A stretch of 64,000 bases of DNA from Sphingobacteriaceae bacterium (GTDB lineage Bacteria; Bacteroidota; Bacteroidia; Sphingobacteriales; Sphingobacteriaceae): NCBI GenBank assembly GCA_947458875.1, contig CANGZD010000004.1:1-64000 (forward strand), read 5' to 3'. Shown here piece after piece: positions 1-9,100 of the stretch (position 1 is the first letter of the stretch; the number at the start of each line of letters is the position of its first letter). A model generated the notes under the pieces. That model was given only the letters and a program-made list of their open reading frames with translations. It did no database searches and was not told the origin of the DNA. The position numbers and the translations under genes were made by a program.

Positions 1-60
1 CTACACACTCTTACTACACACTTTCACTTTTTTACTTTCCAAATCTATCCCAAATCTAGT

Positions 61-103
61 CCTGTATTCACTATTGACAATCTTTTAGTCAAATCAATAC
101 TGG
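61..103. repeat. Imperfect inverted repeat (hairpin) next to the tRNA half
   Basis: The arm at 61-78 (starts CCTGTATTC) and the arm at 88-103 (ends ATACTGG) are imperfect inverted copies around a short AT-rich loop. The repeat lies directly beyond the point where the tRNA-like sequence breaks off. Two short direct repeats lie further left: CCAAATCTA at 39-47 and 50-58, and CTACACACT at 1-9 and 14-22. It may be a terminator for metG or part of an attachment-site region; neither is proven. There is no T-run of terminator type on the metG strand. Confidence 0.45.
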
Positions 104-107
104 AACC

Positions 108-146
108 TTTAGGAAACGCCTATTCTATCCGTTGAACTATGAGACC
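108..146 (-). pseudogene. 5' half of a tRNA-Arg(CCT) gene, truncated after the anticodon loop
   Basis: Read on the minus strand from 146, the sequence gives the acceptor 5' strand GGTCTCA, a D arm (GTTC/GAAT around AACGGATA), an anticodon stem 5' strand GGCGT and the loop TTCCTAA with anticodon CCT. This is the form of bacterial tRNA-Arg(CCU). The following bases (AGGTT) do not rebuild the anticodon stem, and neither a T arm nor the acceptor complement TGAGACC occurs before the window edge at base 1. It starts 8 nt downstream of the metG stop codon on the same strand. It may be a tRNA disrupted by an integrated element, or an att remnant. Sequence left of base 1 would decide. Confidence 0.6.
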
Positions 147-154
147 AAATGGAA

Positions 155-2206
155 CTACCTGACGGTGCTGCCATTATTCATGGCCACTGTTGGGCTAACA
201 AAACTCAATTTCCCTTCGGCATTTTCGGCCATCAGGATCATGCCTTGTGAAAGGATGCCTTTAATTTCTCTCGGCTCCAGGTTCACCAAAATACTTACCT
301 GCTGACCAATGATGGCTTCGGGTTCGTAATGTTCGGCAATACCCGACACTACTGTACGCTGGTCTAATCCGGTATCGATGGTCAGTTTTAACAATTTTTG
401 AGTTTTGGCCACCTTTTCTGCTGCCAGAATGGTGCCAATACGGATATCCATGCCGGCAAATTGATCGTAATTGATGGCTGTTTTGGCCGGACTGATCTCA
501 GCGGCCGTATTATTTTGTTCCATACTGGCTTTCTTGGCGTTTAGTTTTTGTATTTGTAGCTCGATGGTTTCGTCTTCAATTTTTTGGAATAACAATTCAG
601 GCTGTTGCAAGGTGTGTCCATCCTCAAAAGCAAAGGATTCATCAAACTGATAGGTTTCCTTCAGGTTGAGCATACGGAATAATTTTTTTGCCGTACCTGG
701 AAGAAATGGCTGCATCAAGGTGGCCAAATGGCCGATGATGTAGAGGCATTCATGCAAAACCTCACGGGTGGCTTCCGGATCGTCCTTGAAGGTTTTCCAA
801 GGTTCTTGTTCGGTGAGGTAGCGGTTACCTATACGGGCCACTTCCATCATCGTCTGCTGTGCCTGACGGAATTTGTAGGATTCGAAACTGGCACCTAATT
901 CATCGTAGGCCTTGCTAATTTCAGTATGAAGGGATGGGTTTTTTAATCCGGGTGCAATAACGGTAATCTTACCCTCAAAATATTTATGCATCAGCACCAT
1001 TACCCGGTTTACAAAATTTCCAAGAATGGCTACCAGTTCATTATTTACCCGAGCCTGGTAATCTTTCCAGGTGAATTCGCTGTCGGCAGTTTCAGGAGCA
1101 ATTGCTGTCAAGTAATAACGGAGTTCATCTACTTTATCCGGGAAATCTTCCAGGTATTCGTGCATTTCGATGCTCCATCCACGTGAAGTCGACATTTTAT
1201 CGCCCTCCAAATTCATGAACTCGTTGGCCGGGACATTATCTGGCAAAATGAATTCGCCATGGGCATGCAGCATAATCGGGAAAATGATGCAATGGAAAAC
1301 AATATTGTCTTTACCGATAAAGTGGACCAGTTTGGTTTCTCTATCCTTCCAATACAATTCCCAATCCTTGCCATGATCTAAAGCCCATTGCTTGGTAGCC
1401 GAAATGTAGCCAATTGGGGCATCGAACCAAACGTATAGTTTTTTTCCTTCGGCACCTTCGGCGGGTACATCAATGCCCCAATCCAAGTCGCGGGTAATGG
1501 CCCGGGCGGCCAGTCCACCATCGATCCAGCTTTTACACTGTCCGTACACATTGGCACGCCAGTCGTGCTGGTGCCCCTTCAAGATCCATTCTTTCAACCA
1601 GTTTTCGTAACGGTCCATGGGCAGGTACCAATGTTTAGTAGCCTTGAGTACCGGTTTATTTCCTGTAAGGGTAGATTTGGGATTGATCAGTTCATTTGGG
1701 CTGAGTGCCGATCCGCATTTTTCACACTGATCGCCATAGGCGCCTTCAAAACTACATTTGGGGCAGGTTCCGACAATGTAACGGTCGGCCAGAAAGGTGT
1801 TTGCCTCTGCATCGTAATATTGCTCGGATTCTTCGATGGTGAATACCTCTTTTTTATCCAGTATCCTGAAGAAATCCTGAGCGGTTTCGTGATGAATTGC
1901 TTCGCTGGTACGGTGGTAGATATCGAAAGAGATCCCCAGTTTCTCGAAGCTTTCTTTATTTAGTACGTGATATTTGTCGATGATCGCCTTTGGCGTGGAG
2001 CCCTCTTTCATGGCCTGATTCGGAATGGCGGTACCATGCTCATCAGATCCGCATACAAAAACCACTTCCTTGCCCGATAAACGCAGGTAACGCACATACA
2101 AATCGGCAGGTATGTAGGCACCCGCCAAGTGACCGATGTGCTTAGGACCATTGGCATAAGGTAGTGCTGCCGTAATGGTATAACGTTTAAATTTATCTGC
2201 GTTCAA
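155..2206 (-). CDS. metG: Methionyl-tRNA synthetase (long, zinc-binding form with C-terminal tRNA-binding domain)
   Basis: This cytoplasmic class I synthetase charges tRNA-Met with methionine. The HIGH signature is at residues 23-26, a CPKC...CEKC zinc knuckle lies near residues 148-166, and KMSTS is at 337-341. The last hundred residues form the EMAPII/Arc1-like OB-fold tRNA-binding domain (around DIRIGTILAAE). At 683 aa it has the usual length for this two-domain form. The only start that keeps the conserved N-terminus (FKRYTITAALPYANG) is a TTG at 2206; no in-frame ATG lies upstream. A consensus -7 element is found about 30 nt upstream of that codon. It is divergent from the LD-carboxypeptidase gene. 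Confidence 0.97.
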   Translation of the reverse strand: MNADKFKRYTITAALPYANGPKHIGHLAGAYIPADLYVRYLRLSGKEVVFVCGSDEHGTAIPNQAMKEGSTPKAIIDKYHVLNKESFEKLGISFDIYHRTSEAIHHETAQDFFRILDKKEVFTIEESEQYYDAEANTFLADRYIVGTCPKCSFEGAYGDQCEKCGSALSPNELINPKSTLTGNKPVLKATKHWYLPMDRYENWLKEWILKGHQHDWRANVYGQCKSWIDGGLAARAITRDLDWGIDVPAEGAEGKKLYVWFDAPIGYISATKQWALDHGKDWELYWKDRETKLVHFIGKDNIVFHCIIFPIMLHAHGEFILPDNVPANEFMNLEGDKMSTSRGWSIEMHEYLEDFPDKVDELRYYLTAIAPETADSEFTWKDYQARVNNELVAILGNFVNRVMVLMHKYFEGKITVIAPGLKNPSLHTEISKAYDELGASFESYKFRQAQQTMMEVARIGNRYLTEQEPWKTFKDDPEATREVLHECLYIIGHLATLMQPFLPGTAKKLFRMLNLKETYQFDESFAFEDGHTLQQPELLFQKIEDETIELQIQKLNAKKASMEQNNTAAEISPAKTAINYDQFAGMDIRIGTILAAEKVAKTQKLLKLTIDTGLDQRTVVSGIAEHYEPEAIIGQQVSILVNLEPREIKGILSQGMILMAENAEGKLSFVSPTVAMNNGSTVR

Positions 2207-2237
2207 GGCTATACTGTTTGCTTGTTTTTGTAATTTG

Positions 2238-2245
2238 CAAAGATA
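2238..2245 (-). promoter_or_regulatory. -7 promoter element of metG (TATCTTTG)
   Basis: On the minus strand the sequence is TATCTTTG, a perfect match to the Bacteroidota -7 consensus TAnnTTTG. It gives a leader of about 25 nt before the TTG start of metG. No clear TTG -33 element is visible upstream, so the upstream half of the promoter is weak. Confidence 0.55.
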
Positions 2246-2253
2246 ATTTAAAA

Positions 2254-3156
2254 ATGATGATCTGCCCCCCCTATCTTAAAAAAGGCGACAAAGTAGCTAT
2301 TACTTGTCCGGCAAAAAAATTACCACATGGTATTGATGATGCGGTAGGTTTGTTGGAAAGCTGGGGCTTGGAGGTAGTGTTGGGCGAAACGGTTACTGCC
2401 CAGCACCATCAGTTTGCCGGATCAGATGAATTGAGGACCAAAGACCTGCAGCGGTTTTTGGATGACCTGGATATCAAAGCGATTTTTGCCGCCCGGGGCG
2501 GATATGGGACTGTTCGTATCATCGATCGCCTGGAATTTAGCGTCCTGAAAAAATCGCCTAAATGGATTGTGGGGTTCAGTGATATCACCATACTGCATGC
2601 ACACTTACAGGCAGTGTTAAATATGTGTTCCGTTCACGGACAAATGCCATTAACTATTCCGGATGGCAGCAAGCCATCTTTGGAAAGTTTAAGAATGGCT
2701 CTGTTCGGGGAGGCAAACTCTTATCAATTTAATAGTGAAGAACCGGGCAGAGATGGTGAAGCAACTGGAGAGCTGATTGGTGGTAATTTATCTTTAATGG
2801 TCAATCTGAATGGTTCGGTTTCTGATCCGGATTACCGGGATAAAATTTTATTTCTGGAGGATGTGGGCGAACATTTGTATGCCATCGACCGCCTATTTTG
2901 GAACTTGAAACGTTCGGGGAAACTGGCTCAAATCAAAGGGCTAATCATTGGTGGATTTACCGAATTGAAAGATTTTGATCCGCCATTTGGACAGGATGTA
3001 AGAGAGATTGTATTGGATCTAGTGAAAGAATATGATTACCCGGTCTGCTTTGATTTCCCGGCAGGACATGTTTCGGATAACCGGGCATTGATTATGGGAA
3101 AAGAAGTAAATTTAATAGTTAATCAACACAAAGTTCAACTTCATTATTGCAATTAA
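2254..3156 (+). CDS. LD-carboxypeptidase, peptidase family S66 (LdcA/MccF type)
   Basis: S66 serine peptidases cut the L-Lys(or mDAP)-D-Ala bond of murein tetrapeptides during cell-wall recycling; the MccF branch hydrolyses microcin C-type amides. The nucleophile motif GFSD places Ser at residue 109. The surroundings AARGGYGT and the C-terminal FPAGHVSDN segment with the catalytic His fit the family, as does the length of 300 aa. I chose the ATG at 2254 (MMICPPYL); upstream in-frame codons would run into the metG promoter. There is no signal peptide, so a cytoplasmic recycling role is the likely one. The DoxX gene starts 1 nt after the stop codon, so the two are probably co-transcribed. Confidence 0.9.
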   Translation: MMICPPYLKKGDKVAITCPAKKLPHGIDDAVGLLESWGLEVVLGETVTAQHHQFAGSDELRTKDLQRFLDDLDIKAIFAARGGYGTVRIIDRLEFSVLKKSPKWIVGFSDITILHAHLQAVLNMCSVHGQMPLTIPDGSKPSLESLRMALFGEANSYQFNSEEPGRDGEATGELIGGNLSLMVNLNGSVSDPDYRDKILFLEDVGEHLYAIDRLFWNLKRSGKLAQIKGLIIGGFTELKDFDPPFGQDVREIVLDLVKEYDYPVCFDFPAGHVSDNRALIMGKEVNLIVNQHKVQLHYCN

Positions 3157-6127: not shown

Positions 6128-9100
6128 TCAGAATGTTAGGTTTAGATTTAAACCATAGATCCGAGTTGGGGGATTAATTGTTGAATTACTGATACCGAAA
6201 GTGTTTCCTGTTGATATAAAGTTGAAATCTGGATCGGTATAAACGTTTGTTTTAGGCAACCATAGGGCAATATTTCTGCCGGTCAAAGCAATACTAGCTT
6301 TTTTGATGATTTGCTGTTTTCCTAAAAATTTATCTGGAAGGTCGTAATTGATAGAAATCTCTCTTAATCTCCATGCTGCTGCACTGGTTATAAAATTGGT
6401 AGCAACGCTCCGATAAACACCCGTGTAGAAATTCTCTACACTATTAACAGTGATATTTGTATTAGGGGTATAGGTGCCATTCCCGTTATCAATTACAGAA
6501 TTTGGGAAAACGAACTTTTCTCTGTTGTTTTCAGCAGTCGCAGCAGAAACACCTGTCCAAGCCATCGCATTACCAATATCATGGTAAGCATGGTGTCCCC
6601 CTTTATACTCCATTAGTGCTGAAAAGGTTAATCCTTTCCAAGATAATGAGGGGTTTATTCCAATAATCCAAGTTGGCAGGGTTCTTCCAAAAACCGTCAA
6701 TGTTGGGTTTTGAGTTGGCAATCCTGTCACGGCATCAACAATTACATGTCCTTCAGGATCTCTTACATAATCTGTTGCCTTTATTACAAATGCAGGCAAG
6801 CCTTTTATAGCATAATTTGATGCATAGGTATATCCACCAACAGCAACTTCATTAAGGTTTTCATAAACACTGCTGATCTTACTGTCATTAAAAGAGGCAT
6901 TGGTCCTCAAGTCAAAGCTTACATTTCTCCATTTGAATAGTGGAGTAAGTTTCAGATCTAATTCAACGCCTTTGTTTACAAATGCGGCAGCATTGATATA
7001 AGAACTGGTATAACCAGTAGCAGCAGAAATACTGATCGGAATAATCTGATTATCGTTGTTTTGATTATAGAAAGTTGCCTCCAAACTGAATCTATCATTC
7101 AGAAAAGCGGTTTCTATACCTAATTCAGTACTTTCAATAAACTCAGGTTCTAGGTTGGGGTCGTAGGTTACATTGTTAGCTGTAAATCCAGGTAGCGTTC
7201 CATAAGGAAAACCGTTGGTTTGAGAAAAAGTTGCCGCCAATTGGTATGGATCAATATCAGCGTTACCCGTCTTATTCCAAGCTCCTCTTAATTTTAAATA
7301 GGATAAAATATTACTACCTTTTAATCCATTTATAGCATCTGATAAAACTAAAGAACCGCTAACACCTGGATAATAGAATGAATTCTTATCTAATGCTAAA
7401 ACTGATGTTCTGTCATTTCTTAAAGTAAATTCTACATTTGCCCATCCTTTGAAGTTCAAACCGGCACTTCCATAAATGGAGAATAATCGAGTTTGTTCTA
7501 ATGGTGAGGATCCTGTTAACTGCCCGACACGGTTAGAAACATCAAATAATTCTGGTACAACAAGACTACTAACACCCACTTTAGAATCCCTGGCCTCAAT
7601 TTCACGTACATATGTTCCTAACAAACCAGATATTTTAAAATTCTCGTTTAGGGTCTTATTTACACTTGCAAATAGTTCGGAAGAGAGTCTTGTGCTTTTA
7701 TATGATCTTTCTTCTACAAATCCTGGTATTAAATTTGCACCACGATCTATACCAAAAGCATTTGGAACTTCTCCCTTGGAAGTTCTTCGCTCTGTAATCG
7801 TCCTATTATTTAGGGCGGCTTTATAATTAAATGTTAGCCAATCGTTTGCTTTAAAAATTAATTCCAGATTAGTTAATAAATCTTCTCTAGCGCCCTTCTT
7901 TCTCCAATTATCCAAAGCAAAATAGGGGTTCAGTCCATAGTGGTTGAAGTAGTTGTTGTACAGAGAGAATGGATCAGAATTAAAATCGCCGTATTTGGTT
8001 AATGGGATTTGAGCTGGTGTGTTGAAAATTAAGTTCATTAAACCTTGATTTAGCCCAACATTATTGGCTGTATTCCAGTCGGCCATTGATACATCATCAA
8101 ATATGTTATAGTTCTGCTGAACATAATTGGTGTTTAAGCCAATGGTGAATTTCCCGTATTCTCTAGAAGTGTTCAGACGGATACCCGTTCTTCTATTTGC
8201 GTCATCTGGAACAATCCCTTTGATATTTACATCTTGTGCGCTCAAAAAGAATCCTTTTGAGCTAAACGAAAAGTCGTTCTGTATAGTTACTCCTGTATCA
8301 AAAAACTCTTTTCTTGAGTTATTAGGACTATAGGGTACTGTTTGCTCAGAACCATCTGGTAGCGCATCACCAATAATTACATTGGAACCATCAAATGCGG
8401 GGCCCCAAGACCAATTTTCATAGGGTATGTATTCGCCTCCTCCTCCACTTCCAAATTTTTCCTGAAACTTGGGAAAAAATGAAATGTTCTGAAACTGTGT
8501 GCTTGTTCCGAAAGAAATCTGAGGCTTATCGTCTTTAGTTCCTTTTTTCGTGGTGACCAAGATTACACCATTTCGGGCATCAGGACCGTAAATTGCTGCT
8601 GCAGATGCTCCTTTTAGTACAGACACATTTTCGACATCATTTGGATTGATCGATGATAAAAAACTAAGATCAGCTGGTATACCATCTAATACCAAAAGTG
8701 GGTTGTTATTACCGGTAAGTGACCTGATTCCCCTCAGATTCATTTTAACATTTTCAAATACACCGTTATTAACACTGGTTACATTTAATCCGGATACCTT
8801 ACCTTGAAGTCCATTAGCGACATTCACTGCGTTTGCCCTTGTCACTACGTCATTAGAAACAGTTGTAGCAGCATATCCTAAATCTCTCTTTTGGCGCTCA
8901 ATACCTAATGCGCCAATAACCACCTCTCCGAGCATTTTAGCATCCTGCCTCAACACTACATTCATTGGTCCATCAACAATGCTGAGCGTTTGTGTGGTGT
9001 AACCTAAAAAAGAAAACTGTAACTGGATGAATCCTTCGGGCACCCGGATGCTGAACATTCCTTCGGCATTGGTTTGTGTAGCCTGTGTGCTACCTACTAC

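Follow-up and report, generated by a model that had tools for sequence, protein, structure and literature searches.

The 64,000-nucleotide stretch analysed here (the window) begins at the first base of contig C4 of G000, the Bacteroidota MAG studied here, and at this edge a member of an element family is integrated in the host genome. The explanation that best fits the locus, at a probability of roughly 0.8, is that an element with a lambda-type tyrosine recombinase, using a 10-bp core, entered a tRNA-Arg(CCT) gene at its anticodon loop, this being the one such gene found in G000, and replaces that tRNA with one of its own. G000 (1.74 Mb in 43 contigs, 88% complete) was taken as a MAG throughout.

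Junctions at the split tRNA-Arg(CCT) gene

Read on the minus strand, the 5′ half of the tRNA gene continues into the anticodon loop at 116-108, and likeness to a tRNA ends from position 107 downward (Table 1). ARAGORN called no tRNA in the window, and the fold of the 71-146 region was equalled or bettered by 114 of 200 shuffles; a refolded functional tRNA was ruled out on these two results. An Rfam search of window 1-3000 returned three matches, each under its gathering score. An earlier note, made from the letters of the window alone, had described the tRNA as correct down to the anticodon loop and broken off past it. The break was borne out by the sister genome G004, which is intact at the same place, and the 5′ half is real, except that two bases of its 5′ anticodon stem (GC) differ from the AA of G004. 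The direct repeats described in the same place are also real, with CTACACACT at 1 and 14 and CCAAATCTA at 39 and 50. The hairpin reported next to the break (approximately 59-105) is weak, 5 of 200 shuffles of the window sequence folding as well; for the counterpart in locus L111 32 of 200 shuffles did so, which ruled out a conserved structure. The same hairpin sequence was found identical in locus L084.

Table 1. Coordinates of features at the edge of the window.
Feature	Position in window	Strand	Basis
Right end of integrated element	1..107	-	Window 1-109 matches L084 and L111; host flanks unrelated
Arm-type site pair CTACACACT, putative integrase-binding sites	1-9 and 14-22	-	Inverted relative to pair near G000:C8:77-96
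10-bp core GTTTCCTAAA, at both junctions, in tRNA anticodon loop	108..117	-	Longest direct match between junctions
Orphan 5′ half of host tRNA-Arg(CCT), without its 3′ half	117..146	-	Fits intact G004 tRNA when joined
metG (methionyl-tRNA synthetase), host gene upstream of tRNA	155..2212 (limits approximate)	-	NCBIfam PRK00133, E 2.7e-251

The missing 3′ half, with the TGAGACC that the note had predicted for it, was found at the end of a second G000 contig (C8:152-192), where it starts at the anticodon loop and is accompanied by a matching core and mirror-image arms. In G004 an intact tRNA-Arg(CCT) directly adjoins metG, and the downstream flank of this tRNA matches the end of C8. Joining the window flank to C8 (from 152 on) at the core gave the G004 tRNA with the exception of the two anticodon-stem bases, GC for AA. 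Since CACC, CGCC or CTCC stands at this point in other left and right ends, the change can be read as attP bases retained where the strands are exchanged. An intact tRNA-Arg(CCT) was present near metG in all five sister genomes examined (G001-G005); among the 27 tRNAs of G000 there was no intact copy, the Arg anticodons being TCT, ACG and CCG.

The longest direct match between the C4 and C8 ends consists of the 10 bases of the core. Beyond it lie 107 bases of foreign DNA in C4 and about 150 in C8, and each foreign end contains paired copies of GTGTGTAG that are inverted in orientation relative to those of the other end. Exact arm 8-mers occur twice per element end; in 500 shuffles they averaged 0.024 and 0.002 and never exceeded 1. 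Inverted matching between the element ends extends to at most 11 bp, a length reached by 7 of 500 shuffles. Neither G000 junction encodes a tRNA according to ARAGORN and to folds compared with shuffles. Judged from its sequence, the layout is that of an attL/attR pair of a lambda-type tyrosine-recombinase element. The proposal that the window edge is a junction with an integrated element is upheld by the second contig end, with its 3′ half, identical core and mirror-image arms. The other possibility raised at the time, the scar of a lost element, is contradicted, since each junction runs into element DNA and the element is thus still present. The contig ends at window base 1 because the body of the element is missing from the bin, probably as the assembly breaks on copies that are nearly identical in several species.

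Further observations were made in the host genomes. In the sister genome G005 (contig C1, locus L013), a GIY-YIG-like ORF at 567-890, named by reading, has an intact tRNA-Arg(CCT) on one side and a second, degraded tRNA 5′ half adjoining metG on the other, as if another element had used the site. Contigs C6, C7, C11, C26, C29, C30 and C32 of G000 have ends within about 60 bases of a tRNA gene, and these may mark other elements integrated in the genome, or places where the assembly broke at a conserved tRNA.

Related element ends and element-borne tRNAs

An exact paired-arm scan of genome_contigs returned 63 stretches. In four of these (L084, L086, L111 and L144) the arms adjoin a tRNA-Arg(CCT) that is intact, and another core lies close by; four (L089, L092, L106 and L110) have a C8-type end in which arms 64-75 bp from the core are followed by an orphan tRNA 3′ half; L082 has the C8-type layout with a mutated core. 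The rest of the 63 stretches, many of them from Lachnospiraceae or tandem arrays, were not placed in the element family. The G000 left end recurs in four other loci and the right end in two, and the MAGs bearing these ends are titled Cytophagaceae, Sediminibacterium, Bacteroidetes, Chitinophagaceae and Spirosoma. Window 1-109 is identical at 106 of 109 positions to L084 (Chitinophagaceae MAG) and at 99 of 109 to L111 (Spirosoma MAG), and the host flanks past the core are unrelated (56/115 and 56/123, respectively). For the C8 end the identities were 131/155 (L089), 136/157 (L110), 137/155 (L092) and 113/165 (L106).

An attP query of 399 family genomes returned 96 at E <= 0.1, and of the 19 loci examined besides G000 only that of G103, which by its length of 6679 and by sequence is on the same contig as L086, has both arms and core. 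The right-end query of 394 genomes from the family of G401 matched only G401 itself and G858. Exact DNA patterns gave 0, 0 and 0 matches in viral_contigs, and a looser arm pattern matched two contigs there, with no core in the stretches examined. When the element ends were compared with phages by blastn, all 19 matches to the window end fell within the tRNA part, as did nearly all of the 17 matches to the C8 end; a plasmid search with the element ends produced no match. A search for a single contig that spans a complete autonomous element from end to end found none.

In L084 and L111 the arms are followed, 28 bp further on, by an intact tRNA-Arg(CCT) that ARAGORN and Rfam accept (65.8 and 65.5 bits). 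The distance from arm to core is 107 in these two loci and the window alike. DNA past the 3′ end of the tRNA, including a terminator-like stretch, is common to L111, L144 and L086 (L084 ends there), and the tRNA is therefore internal to the element. The element-borne tRNAs (n = 4) share 66-71 of 73 bases where both are 73 bases long and 67-70 of 76 in comparisons with that of L086, and at most 60 identities with the five host tRNAs. The window contig stops at the arm, just before the position that the tRNA occupies in relatives. We predict that the G000 element carries the same tRNA-Arg(CCT); no element-borne tRNA was present in the bin of this 88% complete MAG.

Copies of tRNA-Arg(CCT) were counted in nine genomes by an exact pattern from its 3′ part, which misses divergent copies and was applied to MAGs that are incomplete: G004 had one match, intact; G000, G400 and G404 one each, all broken; and G405 two, both broken, so that broken copies only were found in three of the seven other element-bearing MAGs (G400, G404 and G405), as in G000. 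By the same pattern G401 and G402 had one match each, element-borne and the sole copy found, G399 had three (element-borne, restored and displaced) and G403 also had three (restored beside metG, displaced and element-borne). The host tRNA is restored in the relatives G399 and G403. A right-end 3′ half rebuilds the host tRNA in L144, as its second tRNA, and in G403:C12, the G403 copy lying beside metG like the window. The right end of L190 is of the restoring type; it has a terminator-like stretch, and no whole tRNA precedes it. On the evidence of L190, L144 and G403:C12, restoring and replacing ends therefore occur within one element family, and the arms alone do not tell the element type.

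Several occurrences of cores and arms were recorded separately. A further core lies outside any tRNA, between two arm sets, at L144 1300 and L086 6574. The same arm sequence, AGTGTGTAGTAGGTGTGTAG, has a tRNA-Met or tRNA-Lys no more than about 100 bp away in L102, L112 and L115, which are betaproteobacterial (Burkholderiales, Polynucleobacter), and in L112 an integrase-like ORF, by reading, precedes the arm. L083, L096, L117, L121 and L125 bear the titles Roseburia, Lachnospiraceae, Agathobacter or Lachnoclostridium. Each of them has an ORF 3-171 bp from the paired arm in which a regular expression detected a tyrosine-recombinase motif; the arm sequence is therefore common to integrases of other phyla.

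Genes of the element family

In MAGs of other Bacteroidota families the left end opens into a conserved module that encodes a ParB/methylase-like protein, a short ParB-like protein, a 497-aa tyrosine recombinase, a Rep-like protein and a serine resolvase. The left ends of L106 and L089 have the same gene order, with proteins of about 248, 172-201, 509-522 and 112-120 aa and the 497-aa tyrosine recombinase. The 509-522-aa protein matches N6_N4_Mtase in L106 (3.9e-8) and weakly matches ParB in PHROGs, with no Pfam match for the L110 copy; the 112-120-aa protein is ParB-like by reading. Domains of the recombinase are Phage_integrase (1.6e-18), Arm-DNA-bind_5 and SAM. The next genes in G400 and G405 encode a DUF6291-like protein (whose L106 counterpart is Rep-like), a small protein and the serine resolvase (PF00239, 1.1e-23 and 6.4e-24, respectively).

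Full-length copies of the recombinase occur in G399, G400 and G405, with 100, 76 and 97% identity to the query, and the G404 copy is truncated where its contig ends. In G399 and G400 the gene follows the same left end as in G000, and in G405 it belongs to a related element. The integrase gene that the earlier note proposed to look for was not recovered: no member of this recombinase family is in the G000 bin, it is present in the same element family elsewhere, and G000 has just two PF00589 genes, both located elsewhere in the genome and distant. With the recombinase as query, none of 395 genomes of the class matched at E <= 1e-60, although the element-bearing genomes do match it. In viral_contigs it had no relatives, and its alignment retrieved one distant relative there.

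A PHROGs search with six element proteins returned integrase, replication and ParB families, with a weak tail-fibre match (0.0015) on the Rep-like protein. Phage structural genes were not recognised in the partial element stretches read. PADLOC, run on seven proteins, reported only type II methyltransferase matches, on the ParB/methylase protein. On contig G403:C112, genes for a membrane protein (by reading), two NAD-dependent epimerases and a family 2 glycosyltransferase, together with the tRNA, lie between a left end (1887) and an end of the right type (near 6574). There is no recombinase between the two ends, and the region would represent a complete cassette; the contig stops at 6679. As a separate observation, the Sediminibacterium MAG G405 has several left ends (L167 6602-6720, L169 and L175), one of them with a decayed core and tRNA 3′ half; they adjoin cell-wall and polysaccharide genes, by reading, and look like stacked elements.

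Competing explanations and known systems

In the reading that we prefer, the recombinase, which we infer from the relatives to be the agent of integration, would cut in via the short core of the anticodon loop and part the two tRNA halves. The host 5′ half remains at the right junction, in the window, and the 3′ half has moved to the left junction, in C8; a whole tRNA-Arg(CCT) with its own terminator-like stretch, placed just within the right end of the element as in the relatives, would take over AGG decoding. Replacement of the tRNA is evident from sequence in the relatives and would extend to G000. By owning a tRNA the element would make its own loss costly and could permit itself a short core, and the host cell probably depends on it for the tRNA that was broken.

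Arg(TCT) might read AGG by wobble. As this tRNA is present in G000, the lost tRNA-Arg(CCT) may be a gene that need not be essential, and G000 has no intact CCT tRNA; both facts would suit an element that had merely inactivated a dispensable tRNA, with wobble covering AGG and no replacement in G000. We regard this as unlikely, as the same right end in L084 and L111 leads 28 bp on to an intact tRNA-Arg(CCT), just past the place where the window contig stops. It could also be argued that the element ends of another species were joined to the tRNA halves of G000 during assembly, given that the 43-contig genome looks like a metagenome assembly and that a MAG from a different family has an element end identical at 106 of 109 bases. 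Such a chimera is very improbable: the junctions share 10 bp only, which should be under the usual assembly k-mer, and two independent contigs have complementary junctions with the same core, their element ends differing from each other as those of attL and attR should. Group I introns occur in bacterial tRNA genes, and the break at the anticodon loop is where one might be sought. We give this explanation next to no weight, because RF00028 had no match in G000 (it had matches in 4 of 14 control genomes) and because an intron would have neither a core repeated at the two junctions nor arm sites on its flanks.

Integration with replacement of the tRNA resembles the tRNA-dependent lysogeny of actinobacteriophages (Guerrero-Bustamante and Hatfull 2024, PMC10865867). 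Both have attB in a tRNA gene, a core of about 10 bp and, at the junctions (here those of G000), no tRNA rebuilt; an element tRNA whose isotype is that of the target (in the present case in the relatives L084, L111, L144 and L086); and a tyrosine integrase with an arm-binding domain (here in relatives) and paired arm sites flanking the core. Unlike that system, the hosts are Bacteroidota and the target is tRNA-Arg(CCT), no phage structural gene was recognised in the stretches read, and polysaccharide genes lie beside the tRNA-bearing end in one relative. Closely related phages in the same paper likewise differ in rebuilding the tRNA or not, and its Discussion calls for study of how prevalent the system is beyond actinobacteriophages, naming Lj965 of Lactobacillus johnsonii. 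Islander-type tDNA islands, in the account consulted from PMC4383910, share a tyrosine integrase, a split at the anticodon sub-site and a displaced 3′ fragment that marks one end; in that type the target gene is restored by definition, whereas neither G000 junction restores it and those of the relatives G399 and G403 do. Tycheposons, from part of PMC10872708, are alike in border tRNA, tyrosine recombinase, cargo and aquatic bacteria, a likeness by description. Substitution of a tRNA after phage integration in Sinorhizobium is reported in PMC11476347, and PMC12429752 is a further Sinorhizobium paper. Of 18 papers citing PMC10865867, none of the 15 listed was titled on Bacteroidota. Within this limited literature search the Bacteroidota element family looks new; the principle is already known.

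A broader scenario, offered tentatively and with the odds somewhat against it, is that non-phage elements of aquatic Bacteroidota hold their hosts hostage for tRNA-Arg(CCU) by breaking the only gene and supplying their own. Repeated integration would then stack islands, some beside metG, with surface-polysaccharide genes, and integrase-less cassettes (compare G403:C112) would be moved in trans; the coexistence of restoring and replacing right ends would show how one strategy becomes the other.

The locus and its relatives point to tRNA-dependent integration in another phylum, in elements that are so far not recognisable as phages and whose ends are near-unchanged across families. If this is true, possession of a tRNA can make an integrated element hard to lose, and a tRNA missing from a MAG may flag a hidden element. 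The presence of restoring and replacing ends in one family would make their evolutionary order, left open in PMC10865867, testable by phylogeny.
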